A DNA stretch of 35,058 nucleotides from a virus. The DNA lies in IMG/VR virus record IMGVR_UViG_3300036876_000166, positions 1 through 35,058 of that record; one strand, 5' to 3'. The position numbers and the translations under genes were made by a program. Position 1 is the stretch's first letter, and the number at the start of each line of letters is the position of its first letter. Shown here one piece after another: positions 5,656 through 13,327 of this stretch. The notes beneath the pieces are model-generated. The model was not told where the DNA came from. It made no database searches and saw only the letters and a program-made list of their open reading frames with translations.

Positions 5656-6045
5656 CTAAACGTCCACTTCCACGATGTCCAGCACCACGAACCCAGCCTT
5701 GGGCACCGTGGTTGCCGGAACGCTGGCCAGGTCCACCGTGACGACGTCGCCCTTGTTGAGGCGCGCGCCGCCGGGAAACTGGGAACCCTTGGTAATGGCA
5801 GTGCTGATCGACTTGCCCGCGGCTGCGCCGGCGATCGACAAGCTGGCGGCCGCATTCACGGCCACGCCGTTGATGTTGACATTGACCGCCGTTGCTCCGG
5901 CGCCCGTGCCGGTATCGCTGAGGCAGAGTTGCGCGCCCGCAACGCGCTGCGGCCGGGGCGACGTATAGGTCACCTGGCCAACGCTTGCCGCCAGCGGCGC
6001 GGGCAGCGGAAGAGTGAGTGTGCTTCTACGGAAACTGTCCTGCAT
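5656..6045 (-). CDS. Small beta-rich capsid-associated protein, decoration candidate
   Basis: A 129-residue protein. ATG 6045 is chosen because GAGG lies five bases upstream; an alternative ATG at 6063 adds six residues. It is almost entirely Ala, Val, Thr and Gly with regular strand-forming repeats and ends in a Val/Asp-rich strand. Its position directly after the capsid gene is that of lambda gpD-like decoration or stabilising proteins in many phages. No catalytic motif is visible. Role inferred from position and composition. Confidence 0.55.
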   Translation of the reverse strand: MQDSFRRSTLTLPLPAPLAASVGQVTYTSPRPQRVAGAQLCLSDTGTGAGATAVNVNINGVAVNAAASLSIAGAAAGKSISTAITKGSQFPGGARLNKGDVVTVDLASVPATTVPKAGFVVLDIVEVDV

Positions 6046-6129
6046 GAAATCCTCGCTTTTCATTCGCGGCCCTGGACCGACTCCAGGGCCGCGCCAGCAA
6101 TGCATCTACTGCGCTGTTGGTTGGGTATC

Positions 6130-8586
6130 TCAGCCGGCGACGACGTTCTTGCCCACGCCGCGGAAGTCGATGATGGCGCCGTTGAAGACCATCTTCACCT
6201 TGTATTGCAGCTCGTCCATCGTGAACTGGGTTCCGATGGTGGGCTGGTTGGCGAGGAAGATCTGCGGGTTCTCGATGCCGTCGAGGAACCCGATTTCAAG
6301 GAAAGGAGCGTTGTTCTGATTGGTGCCGTAGTACCAATCGGTTACGTCGGTGAGCTTCTCGTTGACGAAGATCCGCTCATTGTTGGCGCCGAACCGCTGG
6401 TAGAAGGCGTTGCTGCCGGCGGTATTGGTCTGGTTGATCTGGCGTGCGGTGGCGGCCAGGGCCGGAGGCACCATGATCCAATCGAGCGGCAGCCCCAGAG
6501 GTTCGCCCGAATCCTTCTCGGTCTGAGTCATCAGCGCGATCTCGGCCACGATCAGCGCGTCCTGCGAAAGGGCGGCTGAGCCAAGGTTCAGATGCGCGGC
6601 GTTGAACCAGGCCACGGCATCGGCGCCATAGTTGGGGTTGCTGGCAAAGAAGTTGGTGATGTAGTTCTTGAGCGTCCAGCGGCCGGCCCGCGCCAGGCGG
6701 CCGGGGAAGCGGGCGATTGCGCCCAGATCGTCATTGCGGATCGTCTCCTCAGAGATCGAGAGAATATTGCCGCGTTTCTGCATCTGGTAGCTCACGCGCT
6801 CATCCGTGGGCTTGGCAATTTCCGTGTAGCCCGGCGTGCCTTCCGCCACGATCGGCAGCTCGCCGAAGTAGCCCTCACGCACCCGGTCCTGCAGCTTGTA
6901 GTCGCTGATCGAGGCCTTGGTGTAGAGGTTCGACAAGCCATCGAGCGCCAACTCCGCCCAGTCCTGCAACAGACGCTTGGTCATGGAGTTCAGCAGGATG
7001 TTGGGGAAGTCGCCCGTCATCACAGCTTCCGAAGCCAGCATGCGGGTGCCGCTGAAGCCACCGCCGCCCGTCAGGTTGCTCAGGTCGTAATCCCCCGTGA
7101 TGGTGGAGTAGGCCTCGCGCAGACCCTTGAATGCCGGCACGCCCTTGTTCATCGAGTCCTTGATACCCAGGGCCGCTTCCATAGCCAAGTGAAGCTTGTC
7201 GGCGGAATCGAGCGTGATCGCCGAGCCGGGACGCACGCGGCCCACATTGTTGAAGGCGGCAAAGGCGGTACGGACACTGGTGATTTCCGCGTCGATTGCG
7301 GTCTGCGGCAGATCGGCCTCGGCGACCAGGGCGGACTCCAGGTGTGTGCGCGCCAGGTCCTGCGCCGGCTTGGGCAGCTTCGAGCTGACCAGAGAGGTTT
7401 CAATCCGGTTGCGGCTCTGGATGCGATGCGCCTCGGCGAGCTGCGTAGCGGCCTCGGCTGCGGTCACAGTCACAACGGGCGCGGCTGCGGCCGGCGTCTC
7501 GGTGAAGGCGGTTGTGACCGTCTCCATGAAGGCCGGGTAATCGGCCTCGGCAACGGTGGCGAACTTCAAACTCAGCTCGGCGCAGCGCGCGGCGTTCTTT
7601 TGCCGAAGCGCTTCGAGCAGTCGAAGAATGGAATTCTTCATGGGTGCTCCTTCGGTAGCGCTGGCAGCGCCGCCGCGGTTGGGACGATTGGGAACAATCG
7701 CCAGGGATTCAGGTTTGACCGCACTCAACTGTGCGGCCGACAGTGTGCTCGCCACGTCGCTATTGGCAACGAGGAACTTTCCGCCCGCGCCTCCGCGAGC
7801 GCAGAGGTCGACAGAAAAGAGAGTGTCCAGGCTTTCAGACACCAGGCAGTCCTTGCCCTCGATCCGGCCGGCCTTGAACTTCACATTCATCAGGGCCGAG
7901 GTGCCGAATAGGTTGAGGCGCTTCGCTTTCCGTGCGTCGTCAAGCTTCGACCGCAAATCGGACTCGGCAGAAAAGAGATTGACGGTGGTAATGGCCTGAG
8001 TCCCGTCAAACGAGCCGCCCTCCATCCAGCCCGCAATGCGGTCAGGGTCGACCGCGCCCGTCGGGTCCGGACCTCCAATCTCTGGATGCCGGCGCCCAAA
8101 GGGTTTTCCGTGGACGGCCTCAGCTACTTGCTTGACCACCTCGGGAGTGTAGTAGTGGGGGACCCTCGCGCCACTGATGCCGCCCGTTGCCCAGCCCGCA
8201 CGAATCGCGACGATTGGATAACGGCCGGGCTGCTGATCGGCTTCCGCCTCGCTGGCAACGAACTCGCATTCGGAGGCAACAGGCACGTACGCCGTCGTGA
8301 CTTCCTGAGCGTCGCCAAACGTGACGGTCTCGCCGTCGATCGTGTAGGGAATGCGAAACAGCTTCGATTCCGGGCCCCGCGCAATCACATAATCGCTGAA
8401 CGTCTCGTAGAGATAGAAGCGCGAGCCCCCATCGGTGTCGAGACCGAACTGCTCCCGCAGCGCGCCGCCGATTAGAGACTGCTGTTCATCGAGCGAAAGA
8501 TCCGCTTCGGCTGCAAGAAGAATAGCGCTCCGCAGAACTGTTGCAGTCCTGCGGAGCTGGTGCGCGAATTGAAGTGGTTGCTTCAT
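6130..8586 (-). CDS. Prohead protease-scaffold-major capsid fusion protein
   Basis: An 818-residue protein starting at ATG 8586 (GAGG five bases upstream). Residues about 50-280 look like a Mu gpI-type or S78-type prohead protease: likely catalytic His167 in a Gly-Arg-Arg-His-Pro-Glu context, and Ser230 in a Gly-Thr-Ser-Ala context, followed by a Ser-Val-Asp-Leu strand. Residues about 310-440 are helical and Ala/Glu-rich, as expected of a scaffold. Residues about 440-818 resemble Mu gpT-type HK97-fold major capsid proteins. In Mu these are separate genes (I with nested Z, then T); here they form one frame. An internal ATG at 7641 (residue 316) has AAGGAG six bases upstream and would give a 503-residue scaffold-capsid product. 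Self-cleavage is expected to release capsid subunits. Confidence 0.85.
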   Translation of the reverse strand: MKQPLQFAHQLRRTATVLRSAILLAAEADLSLDEQQSLIGGALREQFGLDTDGGSRFYLYETFSDYVIARGPESKLFRIPYTIDGETVTFGDAQEVTTAYVPVASECEFVASEAEADQQPGRYPIVAIRAGWATGGISGARVPHYYTPEVVKQVAEAVHGKPFGRRHPEIGGPDPTGAVDPDRIAGWMEGGSFDGTQAITTVNLFSAESDLRSKLDDARKAKRLNLFGTSALMNVKFKAGRIEGKDCLVSESLDTLFSVDLCARGGAGGKFLVANSDVASTLSAAQLSAVKPESLAIVPNRPNRGGAASATEGAPMKNSILRLLEALRQKNAARCAELSLKFATVAEADYPAFMETVTTAFTETPAAAAPVVTVTAAEAATQLAEAHRIQSRNRIETSLVSSKLPKPAQDLARTHLESALVAEADLPQTAIDAEITSVRTAFAAFNNVGRVRPGSAITLDSADKLHLAMEAALGIKDSMNKGVPAFKGLREAYSTITGDYDLSNLTGGGGFSGTRMLASEAVMTGDFPNILLNSMTKRLLQDWAELALDGLSNLYTKASISDYKLQDRVREGYFGELPIVAEGTPGYTEIAKPTDERVSYQMQKRGNILSISEETIRNDDLGAIARFPGRLARAGRWTLKNYITNFFASNPNYGADAVAWFNAAHLNLGSAALSQDALIVAEIALMTQTEKDSGEPLGLPLDWIMVPPALAATARQINQTNTAGSNAFYQRFGANNERIFVNEKLTDVTDWYYGTNQNNAPFLEIGFLDGIENPQIFLANQPTIGTQFTMDELQYKVKMVFNGAIIDFRGVGKNVVAG
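7639..7652 (-). promoter_or_regulatory. Internal ribosome binding site inside the protease-capsid gene
   Basis: On the minus strand, AAGGAG (within 7652-7645) stands a few bases before the in-frame ATG 7641-7639, which is residue 316 of the fusion, at the protease/scaffold junction. It matches the anti-Shine-Dalgarno better than the start of the full gene. An independent scaffold-capsid product from this start is inferred, analogous to nested scaffold genes in Mu (I/Z) and lambda (C/Nu3). Confidence 0.65.
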
Positions 8587-8599
8587 TCGAACCTCGTTG

Positions 8600-9067
8600 T
8601 TACTTCTCTGTGGCGGCAGCCTGGGTCTGAATTGCCGCGATCAAGTCCGCCTTGCTCGATGCCGGTTCGAGAGTCAGATCGTGCACTTCGGCGGCATGCG
8701 CAATCAGTTGCTCCTTCGTCATCTTCGAAAGATCGACAGACTGAGGAGCCGTATCGGCGATTGGGAATGCGTACTTGCGCCCATCGACGGTTACACACAC
8801 ACGCGTCGGAACGCTCTTGATGGTGCGATCTTCCCTGAGCAAGACTTGCCACTCTTGTAGTTTCGCGATTTCATCGGCGGAAGTAGGCGCGGGAACGGCG
8901 AGGAGCGCGTTTGCGCTCTTGAGCGCCACCGTGCGCTGGGCCGACTCATTGTCTGGGTAATCAAGCTTTGCCTGAGCGAAAGCTTTGGTGTAAGCTGCCG
9001 CCCACTGTTTTGAGGCTTTGTCCGACATGTGCTCCGGAGCGCTGGGAATTGCTGAGACTGTTGCCAT
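8600..9067 (-). CDS. ChaB-like/SAP-like head-region protein
   Basis: A 155-residue protein starting at ATG 9067 with GGAG eight bases upstream. Residues about 8-55 resemble ChaB-type domains (a His-Met start, then Trp, Ala, Phe and Ala at spaced positions and a Ser/Ala-rich helix). Residues about 110-150 look like a small SAP/LEM/Rho-N-type helix-loop-helix: Met-Thr-Lys-Glu-Gln-Leu, then Ser-Lys-Ala-Asp-Leu. The middle is a short beta segment. It lies between gpF and the protease-capsid gene. ChaB-like proteins occur in phages and baculoviruses without a firm biochemical role. A DNA- or nucleoprotein-binding head function is inference only. Confidence 0.65.
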   Translation of the reverse strand: MATVSAIPSAPEHMSDKASKQWAAAYTKAFAQAKLDYPDNESAQRTVALKSANALLAVPAPTSADEIAKLQEWQVLLREDRTIKSVPTRVCVTVDGRKYAFPIADTAPQSVDLSKMTKEQLIAHAAEVHDLTLEPASSKADLIAAIQTQAAATEK

Positions 9068-9078
9068 GGTTCTTTCTC

Positions 9079-9981
9079 CTATGCAGCTTGGGTTGTGACC
9101 GAGAGGCCGTAGCTTTTGAGCAACTGGCGTTCCTGGTCAGTGGGTTTTAATTGGTCATCGTCCAGGTGTGGTAGCACCAGGCAATGGCAGTTGATCGTGT
9201 TCTCCGCAGATCCGGAAGGATCGCGCGGATACATCAGCTCTTCGCCTTCCACAAGGAAAGGCTCGCCGGGGTTGCGGATTTGGCCATCGGCCAACAGGTG
9301 CCCGACCCGCGGCACAAGCGCTACCGGGATGTGCTTCCAGATCTCCTTCAGCCCCGGATGCCGCGTGGCCAGGTCGCCGATCCGCGCCACCGAGGCCAGC
9401 GAGTGGATGCGCATCACCTCGTTAGTTGCGATCGACATGGCCTTTTCGCCGACCTGCGAAAAGAGCCCGGAGAACTTACCGCCTTCAAGCGTGGTGCCGA
9501 TCTGCTCCACGAGTTGGGTAAGATTGGCACGGCCTAGGTAGCCCCTCTGAATGGCCGCATTGATCTTGGCGCCCATGTCGCCGGTCAGGCCGCCAATCAG
9601 GTCCGCCGTATATCCCTGGACAACTTGGAGCGCCGCGCGGTCGATCACCGGCTGAATCAGCGTTGTACCCGTCCCGGCCGCCACTGTTGCGTCCACGCTC
9701 GCCGCCGCAACTTTGTAGGCTTTATCCTCGTAGGAGTTCACCTGATGCGTGGCCGCGTCCCGGAATTGAGCCATGGCCCGTAGCACTTCAGCTCTCAGTG
9801 CTTTCAGACTCGATTCCGAATAGCTCTTCAGATTCGTGTGCGCCAGGTCGGCGAGGATCTCGCGGTTCAGATCGTCGAGCAGCTTCAGGATGGCGCGGCG
9901 CACCTCCGGCGACAGCTCCCCGGCCTGGCTGACCAGCAGGTTGAGCTTTGCCGCGTAAGCCTGTGCGCGCGAGTCCGCCAT
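9079..9981 (-). CDS. Phage head morphogenesis protein, Mu gpF / SPP1 gp7-like
   Basis: A 300-residue protein whose ATG at 9981 overlaps the portal stop by one base (TGATG). A long helical N-terminal half is followed by the family's characteristic C-terminal region: an Arg-Asn-Pro-Gly-Glu-Pro loop, a Tyr-Pro-Arg-Asp-Pro-Ser-Gly segment and an Asn-Cys-His-Cys strand (residues about 225-270). This matches Mu gpF-type minor head proteins (PF04233-like), thought to be packaged in small copy number with the portal. Gene order portal then gpF is the usual one. Confidence 0.85.
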   Translation of the reverse strand: MADSRAQAYAAKLNLLVSQAGELSPEVRRAILKLLDDLNREILADLAHTNLKSYSESSLKALRAEVLRAMAQFRDAATHQVNSYEDKAYKVAAASVDATVAAGTGTTLIQPVIDRAALQVVQGYTADLIGGLTGDMGAKINAAIQRGYLGRANLTQLVEQIGTTLEGGKFSGLFSQVGEKAMSIATNEVMRIHSLASVARIGDLATRHPGLKEIWKHIPVALVPRVGHLLADGQIRNPGEPFLVEGEELMYPRDPSGSAENTINCHCLVLPHLDDDQLKPTDQERQLLKSYGLSVTTQAA

Positions 9982-11717
9982 CAGGCCACCTGCTCTCTGG
10001 CTTCGTCTTCGTCCAGCAGATCGTCGTCCGGGCCTTTGCCTGTCTTGTCGGCCGCGTTCGGCTGCGAGGTCTTCAGCGAGCCCAGCGCCTGGGCCAAGGC
10101 CGACTGCGGGAAGAGCTGATCCTGCTGCTTGGCCGCGCGGTCTTGCTTCTCCTGTTGCGCGGCCTCGTACTCTTCGGCCGAGTCGTCAATGTCCACGCCG
10201 ATCTCAGCCAGCAACGTATGGAAGGCCCGCGCAGCCGTCGCTCCGGTCACCCAGCCTTCCTGCTGGCCAACCTGCATGGCGGTCGCCACGCCCGTCAGCG
10301 TCTGCGCGCCTTTCTCCAGATCCTTCACCGCGATCTCAGGAAACTCGATCGAGAAGGAAAGGTCCACCCCTTGCGGCAGTACCCCGGCGCGCTGCGCGCA
10401 GCTCAGCACAAAGTTCAGCACCGACTTGATGCAGCGCGACATCAAGTTCTGCCGCTTCTGGATCTTCTTCGTGAACGGCGCATTCATTTCCAGCGCCGAT
10501 GCGCGGTTGGCGTCGTCGCCGTCGCCCATCAACACGGGAGGAATTCCGGCGCCTCCCAAGCCGTACTTCTTCACCATGCCCGCGCCGGCCGCCATATCCT
10601 GGCCTTTGAAGTCCGGCGTCTGCGCCTGGATCTTCAGCTTCTCATTGCTCACGATGACGCCGCCCTGGCGCGGCGGGTCCTTGGTCAATTTGTTCTTGTA
10701 CTCATCAACCTTCTTGGGGTCCGCTCCCTCCAACGTGTAATGCCACACAAAGGAATTCAGAAACCGGCACTTGTCTGCAAAGTCGAAGATCATCTGGTCG
10801 AAAACATCGATCCAGTCAGCCAGGCTGAACAACTCGCTGAAGCCGCGGCTGGCGCTCTTGGCCTTGTTCAGCGCGAAATAGAAGCACTCCCCGTCAAGCT
10901 GGCCATAGTTCTCATCGTTCGGGTCCTCGATGCGGCGAACGATCAGCATCGGCTTCTGCAGGACCTCGCCCACCTCGCGGCGCAGCCGGACAGCATACGG
11001 CACGTTGATCGAAGCCGTGCCGTCCGCCGTGGCCATCTCCGCGAACTGGATGGTGTCGATATTCATCGGATCGATGTAGCCGACGCGCACCCTACCATTG
11101 ACCGGATTGACGGCCACCGGCACGCACAACTCGCCAAACGTGGTCTTCTCGTCGCACCAGGTCTCGATATTGGCGTCCATGTCATTGACTTCGTCGTTCC
11201 AAAAGTCGTCGATAACCTGCTGCACGCGCGGGTCCTTGGCTGTGACCCGCACGCCTTTGCCCAGGGTGTAATCGGTGAGGATCTCCACGATCCGTTTACC
11301 GAAGGGCGTCGTCACGGCCAGGAAATAGCAGACCTGCAGCATGCGGTCATGCATCAGCGGGTTCAGATCGCGGAGCGTGGCCAGACTGGTGATGCGCCGG
11401 AAACCCGGATCTTCGCCGTCGCCGGTGGTCAAGGTGAAGAGCTGTGGCGCGACGGCCTCGGCCGCCAGGCGCTGCTCGGGCGTGATCTTGCCCGTGCCCA
11501 GCATCTTGTACGCCGCGGTCAGCATCGGAATGTCGCTCTCGGCCACGTTCGACAAGCCAGCCTTCACCAGCGCCCCGCGCACGGCCGCTTCATCCGCGTC
11601 CTCGCGCGCATCATTCCAACGCTTGGCTTCGCCCAGGTTGAGCATCGTCATGCTATTGCGCTCGGCAATCGAGCGGCGCTGCAGCCAATTCTTTACGCGT
11701 CCCGGAATCAAGCCCAT
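9981..11717 (-). CDS. Phage portal protein
   Basis: A 578-residue protein. The ATG at 11717 overlaps the terminase C-terminus by 10 bases and has GGAG six bases upstream; the longer open frame upstream is out of register with real coding. The protein contains an extended N-terminal region, a stretch typical of portals around residues 120-210 (a Thr-Pro-Phe-Gly-Lys helix, then an Asp-Phe-Trp-Asn-Asp-Glu turn), a helical core, and a Ser/Glu/Asp-rich acidic C-terminal tail. Portals form the dodecameric ring through which DNA is packaged. It corresponds in order to Mu gp29. The exact portal family is not assigned here. Confidence 0.85.
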   Translation of the reverse strand: MGLIPGRVKNWLQRRSIAERNSMTMLNLGEAKRWNDAREDADEAAVRGALVKAGLSNVAESDIPMLTAAYKMLGTGKITPEQRLAAEAVAPQLFTLTTGDGEDPGFRRITSLATLRDLNPLMHDRMLQVCYFLAVTTPFGKRIVEILTDYTLGKGVRVTAKDPRVQQVIDDFWNDEVNDMDANIETWCDEKTTFGELCVPVAVNPVNGRVRVGYIDPMNIDTIQFAEMATADGTASINVPYAVRLRREVGEVLQKPMLIVRRIEDPNDENYGQLDGECFYFALNKAKSASRGFSELFSLADWIDVFDQMIFDFADKCRFLNSFVWHYTLEGADPKKVDEYKNKLTKDPPRQGGVIVSNEKLKIQAQTPDFKGQDMAAGAGMVKKYGLGGAGIPPVLMGDGDDANRASALEMNAPFTKKIQKRQNLMSRCIKSVLNFVLSCAQRAGVLPQGVDLSFSIEFPEIAVKDLEKGAQTLTGVATAMQVGQQEGWVTGATAARAFHTLLAEIGVDIDDSAEEYEAAQQEKQDRAAKQQDQLFPQSALAQALGSLKTSQPNAADKTGKGPDDDLLDEDEAREQVA

Positions 11718-13327
11718 CTGGATCTCCTGTCGCGGCGCACGAAGTCGTCGCCGCCCCGGCTCTGGCCGGCGAGTACTTCGCCCCGGCCGACGCCGGATTC
11801 CCGGCCGCCCACCTGAGCGTTGCTGCTGGCGATTGCTACCTGAAAGTTGATCGTGCGGGCGAGCTGCACCGCGCCCTGCAGCGCGTCGGCCTGATCGTCC
11901 TTGATCTTTCCCAGAAAGAGGAGCTGCTGGATCAGCGTCTTTTGCGTCCCATCCAGGCAGAAGCGGATGGTTCCGTTCTCTACCAGCGACGAGATGCTGG
12001 AGATCCGGAGAAACTTGTCCGTCAGGTTGGGCACGCCGACAACGTTGATATAGCGGCCCGTCACCCGGCTCTGCTCTTCCATCTCCTGTTTCAGAGCGTC
12101 CTGGTACGCCTGGTTCTCGATACCCACAACGACCGGTTGTTCTTCGTCGTAGCGGTTGAGGATGAATTCCTTTTGCTTGATGTACGGAAGCTTCACGCCT
12201 TCCGCGCGCTCGACATGCAGGAAGCCATTCGTGTCGATTGCCAGGGTGACGCTGGCAAAGAAATCCGCCCGCTTCTTCAGGCTGATCGCCGGATCGTAGT
12301 AAGTGACCCGGACACACGGTTTCTGTTGCAGCTCCTCGCGCCGGTAGGCGTGGCGAATGATCCATCCTTCCTGAAACACCTGAGTGTCTGCGCTGATCGG
12401 CCGGTTGCGGAACTCCTGGTTAAAGAAGACCGACCCGACATCGCCTTCCTTTTCCTTCAGCGATTGCAGATCCCACTTCTCGGGCCACAGCACGGACTCC
12501 GGAGTCCACTCGTCGTCTACGGCCTCGTAGGTGCGTTTGATGAACCGCTTGAATTTCTCCGGGTCCAGCAGGTTCGACAGGAACGAGTCGAAATGCTGAA
12601 TGGTGCCGACGGCGAAGATCTGGGCGTTCTTGCCCAGGCTCATCACCGTGCCCTTGAACCACTTGATGAGCTTGTCGCGCGTCTCCGGATTGTCTACGGA
12701 CTCTTCATTCTCCAGATCGTCGAGAATAATCAGGTCGGGGCGGTATTGCCGGTAGCGCAGGCCGCGCATGCTCTGGCCGGCGCCACGCGCGACAATCGAG
12801 ATCCCGGTGTTCGTCCGGCAATCGTTGACATCCCACTTCTTGTCGCCGACCAGGTCGCCGAAATCCTCGCGCAACTTGGCGTTGGTTTCCAGCTCCTCTT
12901 TGATGGCTGCGAGCTGGAGTGCGGCGTTCGCCTGGTTGTCACCGATGAGGACGATGAACCAGCGCAGCTTGTAGCAGATGCAATAAAGCGAGAAGATCAC
13001 CGAAACGACGGTGGACTTCGCATGCTCGCGAGGCGCGGCGATGGCCGCATATTGCTCGGTGAGCAGAATGGTGTATAGCTCACGGTGGAAGACTGCCGGC
13101 GCGATAAACCGCCCGGTCTCCGGGTCCACCATGAAGTGCCGGAGATACTTGACGGCAAAGTCGGTGATCTGGTCGGCCAGGTCCCACGCCTGCGAGAGAA
13201 TTACAGAGGCGTCCGCCTTTTCCGCCCGCGACTTGACCGGAACTTTTGAGAACACAGACCGGAGACCAGCTCCGGCTTCCTCAAGCCGCTGTCGCTTCGA
13301 TTTGCTTTGCGAATGCTTCAGCGGCAT
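11708..13327 (-). CDS. Terminase large subunit (packaging ATPase/nuclease)
   Basis: A 539-residue protein starting at ATG 13327 with GGAG seven bases upstream, overlapping the gp27-like gene by 47 bases. Visible motifs: a Walker A-like Ala-Pro-Arg-Glu-His-Ala-Lys-Ser-Thr (residues 98-106), a Walker B Leu-Ile-Ile-Leu-Asp-Asp (199-204), and a nuclease region with acidic residues at Asp345 (Tyr-Asp-Pro), Glu404 (Gly-Ile-Glu-Asn) and Asp477/478 and 481 (Asp-Asp-Gln-Ala-Asp). Equivalent to Mu gp28. The C-terminal about 25 residues are Gly/Arg-rich and overlap the portal start. In transposable phages it packages host-flanked DNA, consistent with random integration. Confidence 0.9.
   Translation of the reverse strand: MPLKHSQSKSKRQRLEEAGAGLRSVFSKVPVKSRAEKADASVILSQAWDLADQITDFAVKYLRHFMVDPETGRFIAPAVFHRELYTILLTEQYAAIAAPREHAKSTVVSVIFSLYCICYKLRWFIVLIGDNQANAALQLAAIKEELETNAKLREDFGDLVGDKKWDVNDCRTNTGISIVARGAGQSMRGLRYRQYRPDLIILDDLENEESVDNPETRDKLIKWFKGTVMSLGKNAQIFAVGTIQHFDSFLSNLLDPEKFKRFIKRTYEAVDDEWTPESVLWPEKWDLQSLKEKEGDVGSVFFNQEFRNRPISADTQVFQEGWIIRHAYRREELQQKPCVRVTYYDPAISLKKRADFFASVTLAIDTNGFLHVERAEGVKLPYIKQKEFILNRYDEEQPVVVGIENQAYQDALKQEMEEQSRVTGRYINVVGVPNLTDKFLRISSISSLVENGTIRFCLDGTQKTLIQQLLFLGKIKDDQADALQGAVQLARTINFQVAIASSNAQVGGRESGVGRGEVLAGQSRGGDDFVRRDRRSRWA

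Follow-up and report, generated by a model that had tools for sequence, protein, structure and literature searches.

The window, a 35,058 nt stretch of viral DNA (IMG/VR record IMGVR_UViG_3300036876_000166), very probably encodes a head gene with two products translated from a single mRNA: an 818-residue protease–scaffold–capsid protein and a nested 503-residue scaffold–capsid protein. The full gene is an 818-codon ORF on the minus strand (8586–6130), and its outer start consists of a GAGG motif, a 5 nt spacer and the ATG of codon 1 (8584–8595, minus strand). Within this gene, the sequence AAGGAGCACCCATG at 7639–7652 on the minus strand is made up of the putative nested Shine–Dalgarno (SD) motif AAGGAG (7652–7647), a 5 nt spacer (CACCC) and an ATG (7641–7639). 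The ATG is codon 316 of the same reading frame, and initiation at this position would leave the 503 residues encoded by 6130–7641. The initial annotation had singled out both the motif and the length of the nested product, and both stand.

The nested ATG lies between regions of different predicted function. A fold match and invariant alignment columns place a protease domain at residues 105–265 (7792–8274, minus strand). In a search with VIA-align, the predicted model of the N-terminal, protease part (mean pLDDT 69) matched the T4 gp21 capsid-assembly protease (5jbl) with a Z score of 11.3 over 138 residues; subsequent rows scored 6 or below, with herpesvirus proteases among the lower ones, and Foldseek matched the same model to a gp21-type protease with an E value of 2e-3. 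Residues H144, H167 and S230 are invariant across the family alignment. Judged from the predicted model, the domain is of the T4 gp21/herpesvirus-type fold.

The protease fold ends at approximately residue 265, and is followed by a linker of variable sequence and length (residues 266–315; 7642–7791, minus strand) that is modelled with low pLDDT. The nested product would begin with residues 316–447 (7246–7641, minus strand), a region predicted to be helical from residue 317, with pLDDT mostly 65–83 and a putative scaffold role. Further downstream, residues 521–811 (6154–7026, minus strand) match the Pfam capsid family PF25209 (Phage_capsid_4) at 114 bits, against a gathering cut-off of 27 bits. 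The nested product was modelled with low confidence (mean pLDDT 50); in a fold search its C-terminal part retrieved HK97-fold shells first (SaPI1, Z score 9.0), with R4C, HK97 and others among the further shells matched. Searches of PDB sequences with profiles of the protease and capsid parts gave no matches. The fold matches and PF25209 support the domain order protease–scaffold–capsid. Because the protease fold ends before codon 316, and the helices and capsid domain follow it, the nested ATG divides the protease from the scaffold and capsid; the site is therefore at the junction where the initial annotation had put it, and the nested frame does include the capsid.

Taken on its own, a single AAGGAG–ATG site is weak evidence (p about 0.03). 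The motif AAGGAG-N4-9-ATG occurs four times in the window against an expectation of 1.28, and AAGGAG preceded ATG316 in 3.2% of codon shuffles in which the protein and codon usage were fixed. The nested start has the best pairing with the anti-SD of 16S rRNA among the 42 in-frame ATG, GTG and TTG codons, at −8.0 kcal/mol versus −6.6 kcal/mol for the outer start. We discarded chance as the explanation because the site is conserved across relatives. Openness of the mRNA around the nested start was checked as a possible feature, and was not unusual. A hairpin sequestering the nested SD, in which GAGC would pair with GCTC ~22–26 nt downstream of the ATG, was seen in many single folds and was rejected as unsupported: covariation for the hairpin was nil (term +0.13), and SD pairing did not exceed that in codon-shuffled controls (median p of 0.69 for pairing and 0.17 for MFE).

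Relatives were drawn from two IMG/VR scans that yielded some 45 loci, several of them from the same contigs; a scan of genome contigs found no relatives. The family comprises 26 distinct sequences, including the window, with best-segment identity down to 44%. In a codon alignment of the relatives covering the junction, the nested ATG is kept in 26/26 distinct sequences and AAGGAG in 25/26, the exception (L043) having lost one codon at the site while retaining GAGG at 5 nt spacing. The linker around these elements otherwise differs in both sequence and length. Glutamine replaces glutamate in L024 with AAGGAG still intact, and the remote pair L045 and L047 (41–44% best-segment identity) carry AAAGGAG. 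The initial annotation had made its proposal depend on conservation of the SD and ATG in close relatives, and such conservation was found.

The position of the outer start varies among relatives. In eight loci (L007, L023, L024, L026, L031, L037, L043 and L046), the open frame continues upstream for another ~85–100 codons and contains candidate SD/ATG starts, which suggests that some members of the window family have an additional N-terminal domain. Separately, a cysteine-rich insert, CSCCQGCADQCCQGCANGTGCQCCQGCSGGQC, lies close to the N-terminal end of the protease part in the 92%-identical relatives L002 (L002:3001-4032), L003 and L008, but not in the window or other relatives.

Codon-level tests on 25 representatives below 95% DNA identity point to a constraint on nucleotides around the nested start, beyond that on the peptide alone. 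Gly313 is encoded by GGA in 24/24 representatives, with no change on the tree, the residue being missing in L043. This is the sole column among 43 conserved glycine columns with GGA as its main codon, and GGA makes up 13% of glycine codons in the family genes. Synonymous sites around codons 308–330 have changed unusually little. Seven-codon windows starting at codons 308–312, 322–324 and 332–334 rank among those with the least synonymous change, and are rivalled only by windows near codons 773–775 and 795. Given the invariant GGA at Gly313 and the low synonymous change, we infer selection on nucleotides. What these comparisons establish is the domain order and, at the junction, a conserved translation start under selection. 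Unusually little synonymous change is also seen immediately after the nested start, at 7603–7623 (codons 322–328), where CTC324 and GCG326 are invariant in 25 sequences; the SD hairpin was examined as a cause and was unsupported.

For eight named phages, we also looked for a nested start in the fusion gene, three with ClpP-type proteases (F10, E. coli 606R10 and Sc-Yong805-1) and five with other proteases (Bordetella PBb002, Paenibacillus Pd_22F, Synechococcus MinM1, Nonnen-W8red 2 and Microcystis JY22). In all eight, an in-frame start accompanied by an SD-like sequence lies close to where the protease domain ends, and it is clear in most. The start of Microcystis JY22 is the weakest of the eight, and that of Paenibacillus Pd_22F is best taken as a TTG two codons ahead of the ATG. 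The nested start predicted for phage F10 is Met220. An even stronger SD in this phage, AAGGAGGAG, precedes an in-frame ATG within the ClpP domain at codon 185 (L053:2356-2358); this site is probably incidental, as the matching site in 606R10 is weak.

Three further scans gave three alignable families with ClpP-type or HK97-like proteases. We scored an ATG with an SD of ≤−5 kcal/mol no more than 4 codons from the aligned junction, and found it in 14/14 distinct sequences of the F10 type, 49/55 of the MinM1 type, 54/62 of the Bordetella type and 26/26 of the window family. The three non-window families together have such a start in 117 of 131 sequences, and in 29 of the 33 clusters formed below 50% amino acid identity. 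The background in these three families is 2.5–3% of other 9-codon windows, and across the genes of all four families it is 0.9–3.0% of other 9-codon windows and 7–14% of other internal ATGs; kinship within families and the overlap in kind of the MinM1 and Bordetella types mean that the Fisher values lack independence. Roughly a tenth of the sequences in the other families have no ATG plus SD in this 4-codon range, and in several of these exceptions the start is displaced by 4–20 codons, or is GTG instead. Judged from the alignments, the nested junction start appears to be general across fusion families. We lean, with some reserve, towards the broader proposal that essentially all protease–scaffold–capsid fusion genes of tailed phages, whatever the class of protease, are two-product genes in which the nested scaffold–capsid start determines how much capsid is made relative to protease and so makes the fusion tolerable.

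The alternative that survives best, though we consider it improbable, is that only the polyprotein is made. All capsid would then come from 818-residue chains from which the protease cleaves it free, and the AAGGAG–ATG would be incidental or would reflect the need for a particular peptide, for instance a cleavage site (EGA-MK). It is in keeping with this reading that the frame is uninterrupted through the junction in every relative, that database annotation treats the protein family as a fusion and that protease cleavage is expected in any case. However, a peptide constraint leaves both the GGA codon in 24/24 representatives and the low synonymous change unexplained, and the peptide ahead of the nested methionine varies between families, whereas the SD and ATG persist. 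A separate internal transcript for the nested product, in the style of herpesvirus UL26/UL26.5, is very unlikely: herpesviruses, with their related protease fold, do use a nested transcript, but no promoter was found at 6000–9200 in a scan limited to sigma-70-like sites, and the conserved element is an SD, equally usable on the long mRNA. Just as little credence is due to the idea that the SD-like sequence pauses ribosomes between domains for co-translational folding, with no initiation, since a coupled in-frame ATG at normal spacing in four families would go unexplained, even though internal SD-like sequences have been proposed as pause sites and the synonymous constraint reaches beyond the SD to codons 322–334.

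We therefore favour two starts on one mRNA. Initiation at codon 1 would yield the 818-residue protease–scaffold–capsid protein, and initiation at the nested AAGGAG/ATG316 of the same mRNA would yield the 503-residue scaffold–capsid protein. Most of the shell would be built from the nested product, which can be compared with HK97 gp5 and its delta domain. The protease would reach the procapsid on a smaller number of full-length subunits and remove the scaffold there. Actual initiation, the product ratio, co-assembly and cleavage are the steps that we infer. An excess of the short product over the full-length protein is plausible, because the nested SD is stronger than the outer SD.

Fusions of protease, scaffold and capsid are already known (NF045540, NF045541 and phage MD8; PMC8508860). 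The MD8 fusion gene was presented as a single-product gene, in a text in which neither 'internal' nor 'start codon' occurs (PMC8508860), and databases give such genes a single product name, 'protease/major capsid protein fusion'. Within a limited coverage of the literature, we found no description of an internal start in such fusions; an earlier account may exist for the Gifsy-2 capsid gene. If the two-product reading is true, the puzzle of a one-to-one ratio of protease to capsid disappears, and virion proteomics of fusion phages will need to be re-read. The nested scaffold start of Mu and lambda would then be a general solution, retained through gene fusion and across protease classes. Elsewhere in the window, the portal ORF (9981–12365) overlaps the terminase ORF (11708–13327) on the same strand by ~660 bases (11708–12365) if its first ATG is used; the true portal start is probably further downstream.

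The window gene resembles the fusions of NCBIfam families NF045540 and NF045541, and those of Pseudomonas phages F10 and MD8, in combining protease, scaffold and capsid in one gene, and F10 and its relatives share the nested SD/ATG at the junction. Unlike those families, it has a gp21-like protease and scores far below their cut-offs, with 161 bits against NF045541 (prohead protease/MCP fusion; residues 363–814 only, cut-off 525) and 133 bits against NF045540 (ClpP-like protease/MCP fusion; residues 520–814 only, cut-off 475). The window protein is thus not a member of either family. The layout of the nested product, a helical scaffold followed by an HK97-fold shell, is like that of HK97 gp5 with its N-terminal delta scaffold domain, but in HK97 the protease, gp4, has a gene of its own. 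Salmonella Gifsy-2 reportedly also has one gene for protease, scaffold and capsid. Herpesvirus UL26/UL26.5, whose protease shows fold kinship with that of the window, gives a nested in-frame scaffold product that is nested by transcription, and the herpesvirus major capsid protein is encoded by a separate gene.

The initial annotation had likened the arrangement to the nested scaffold gene of Mu, and the Mu record (NC_000929) bears this out: the scaffold part, Z, is annotated with an in-frame start of its own inside the protease gene I. The Mu capsid T is, however, a separate gene whose start codon overlaps the end of I/Z, whereas in the window the capsid is in both products. In a sequence comparison, kinship of the window capsid to Mu gpT was weak (14% probability). 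Phage lambda also has a nested in-frame scaffold start, that of Nu3 within the protease gene C; the lambda capsid E, unlike the window capsid, has a gene to itself, and the proteases of lambda and the window belong to different classes. The window gene thus has the in-frame internal start and SD at the protease/scaffold junction that mark the Mu I/Z and lambda C/Nu3 type, but departs from it in that the capsid domain shares that frame instead of having its own gene. The window gene most likely extends the nested scaffold-start logic of Mu I/Z and lambda C/Nu3 to the capsid itself.
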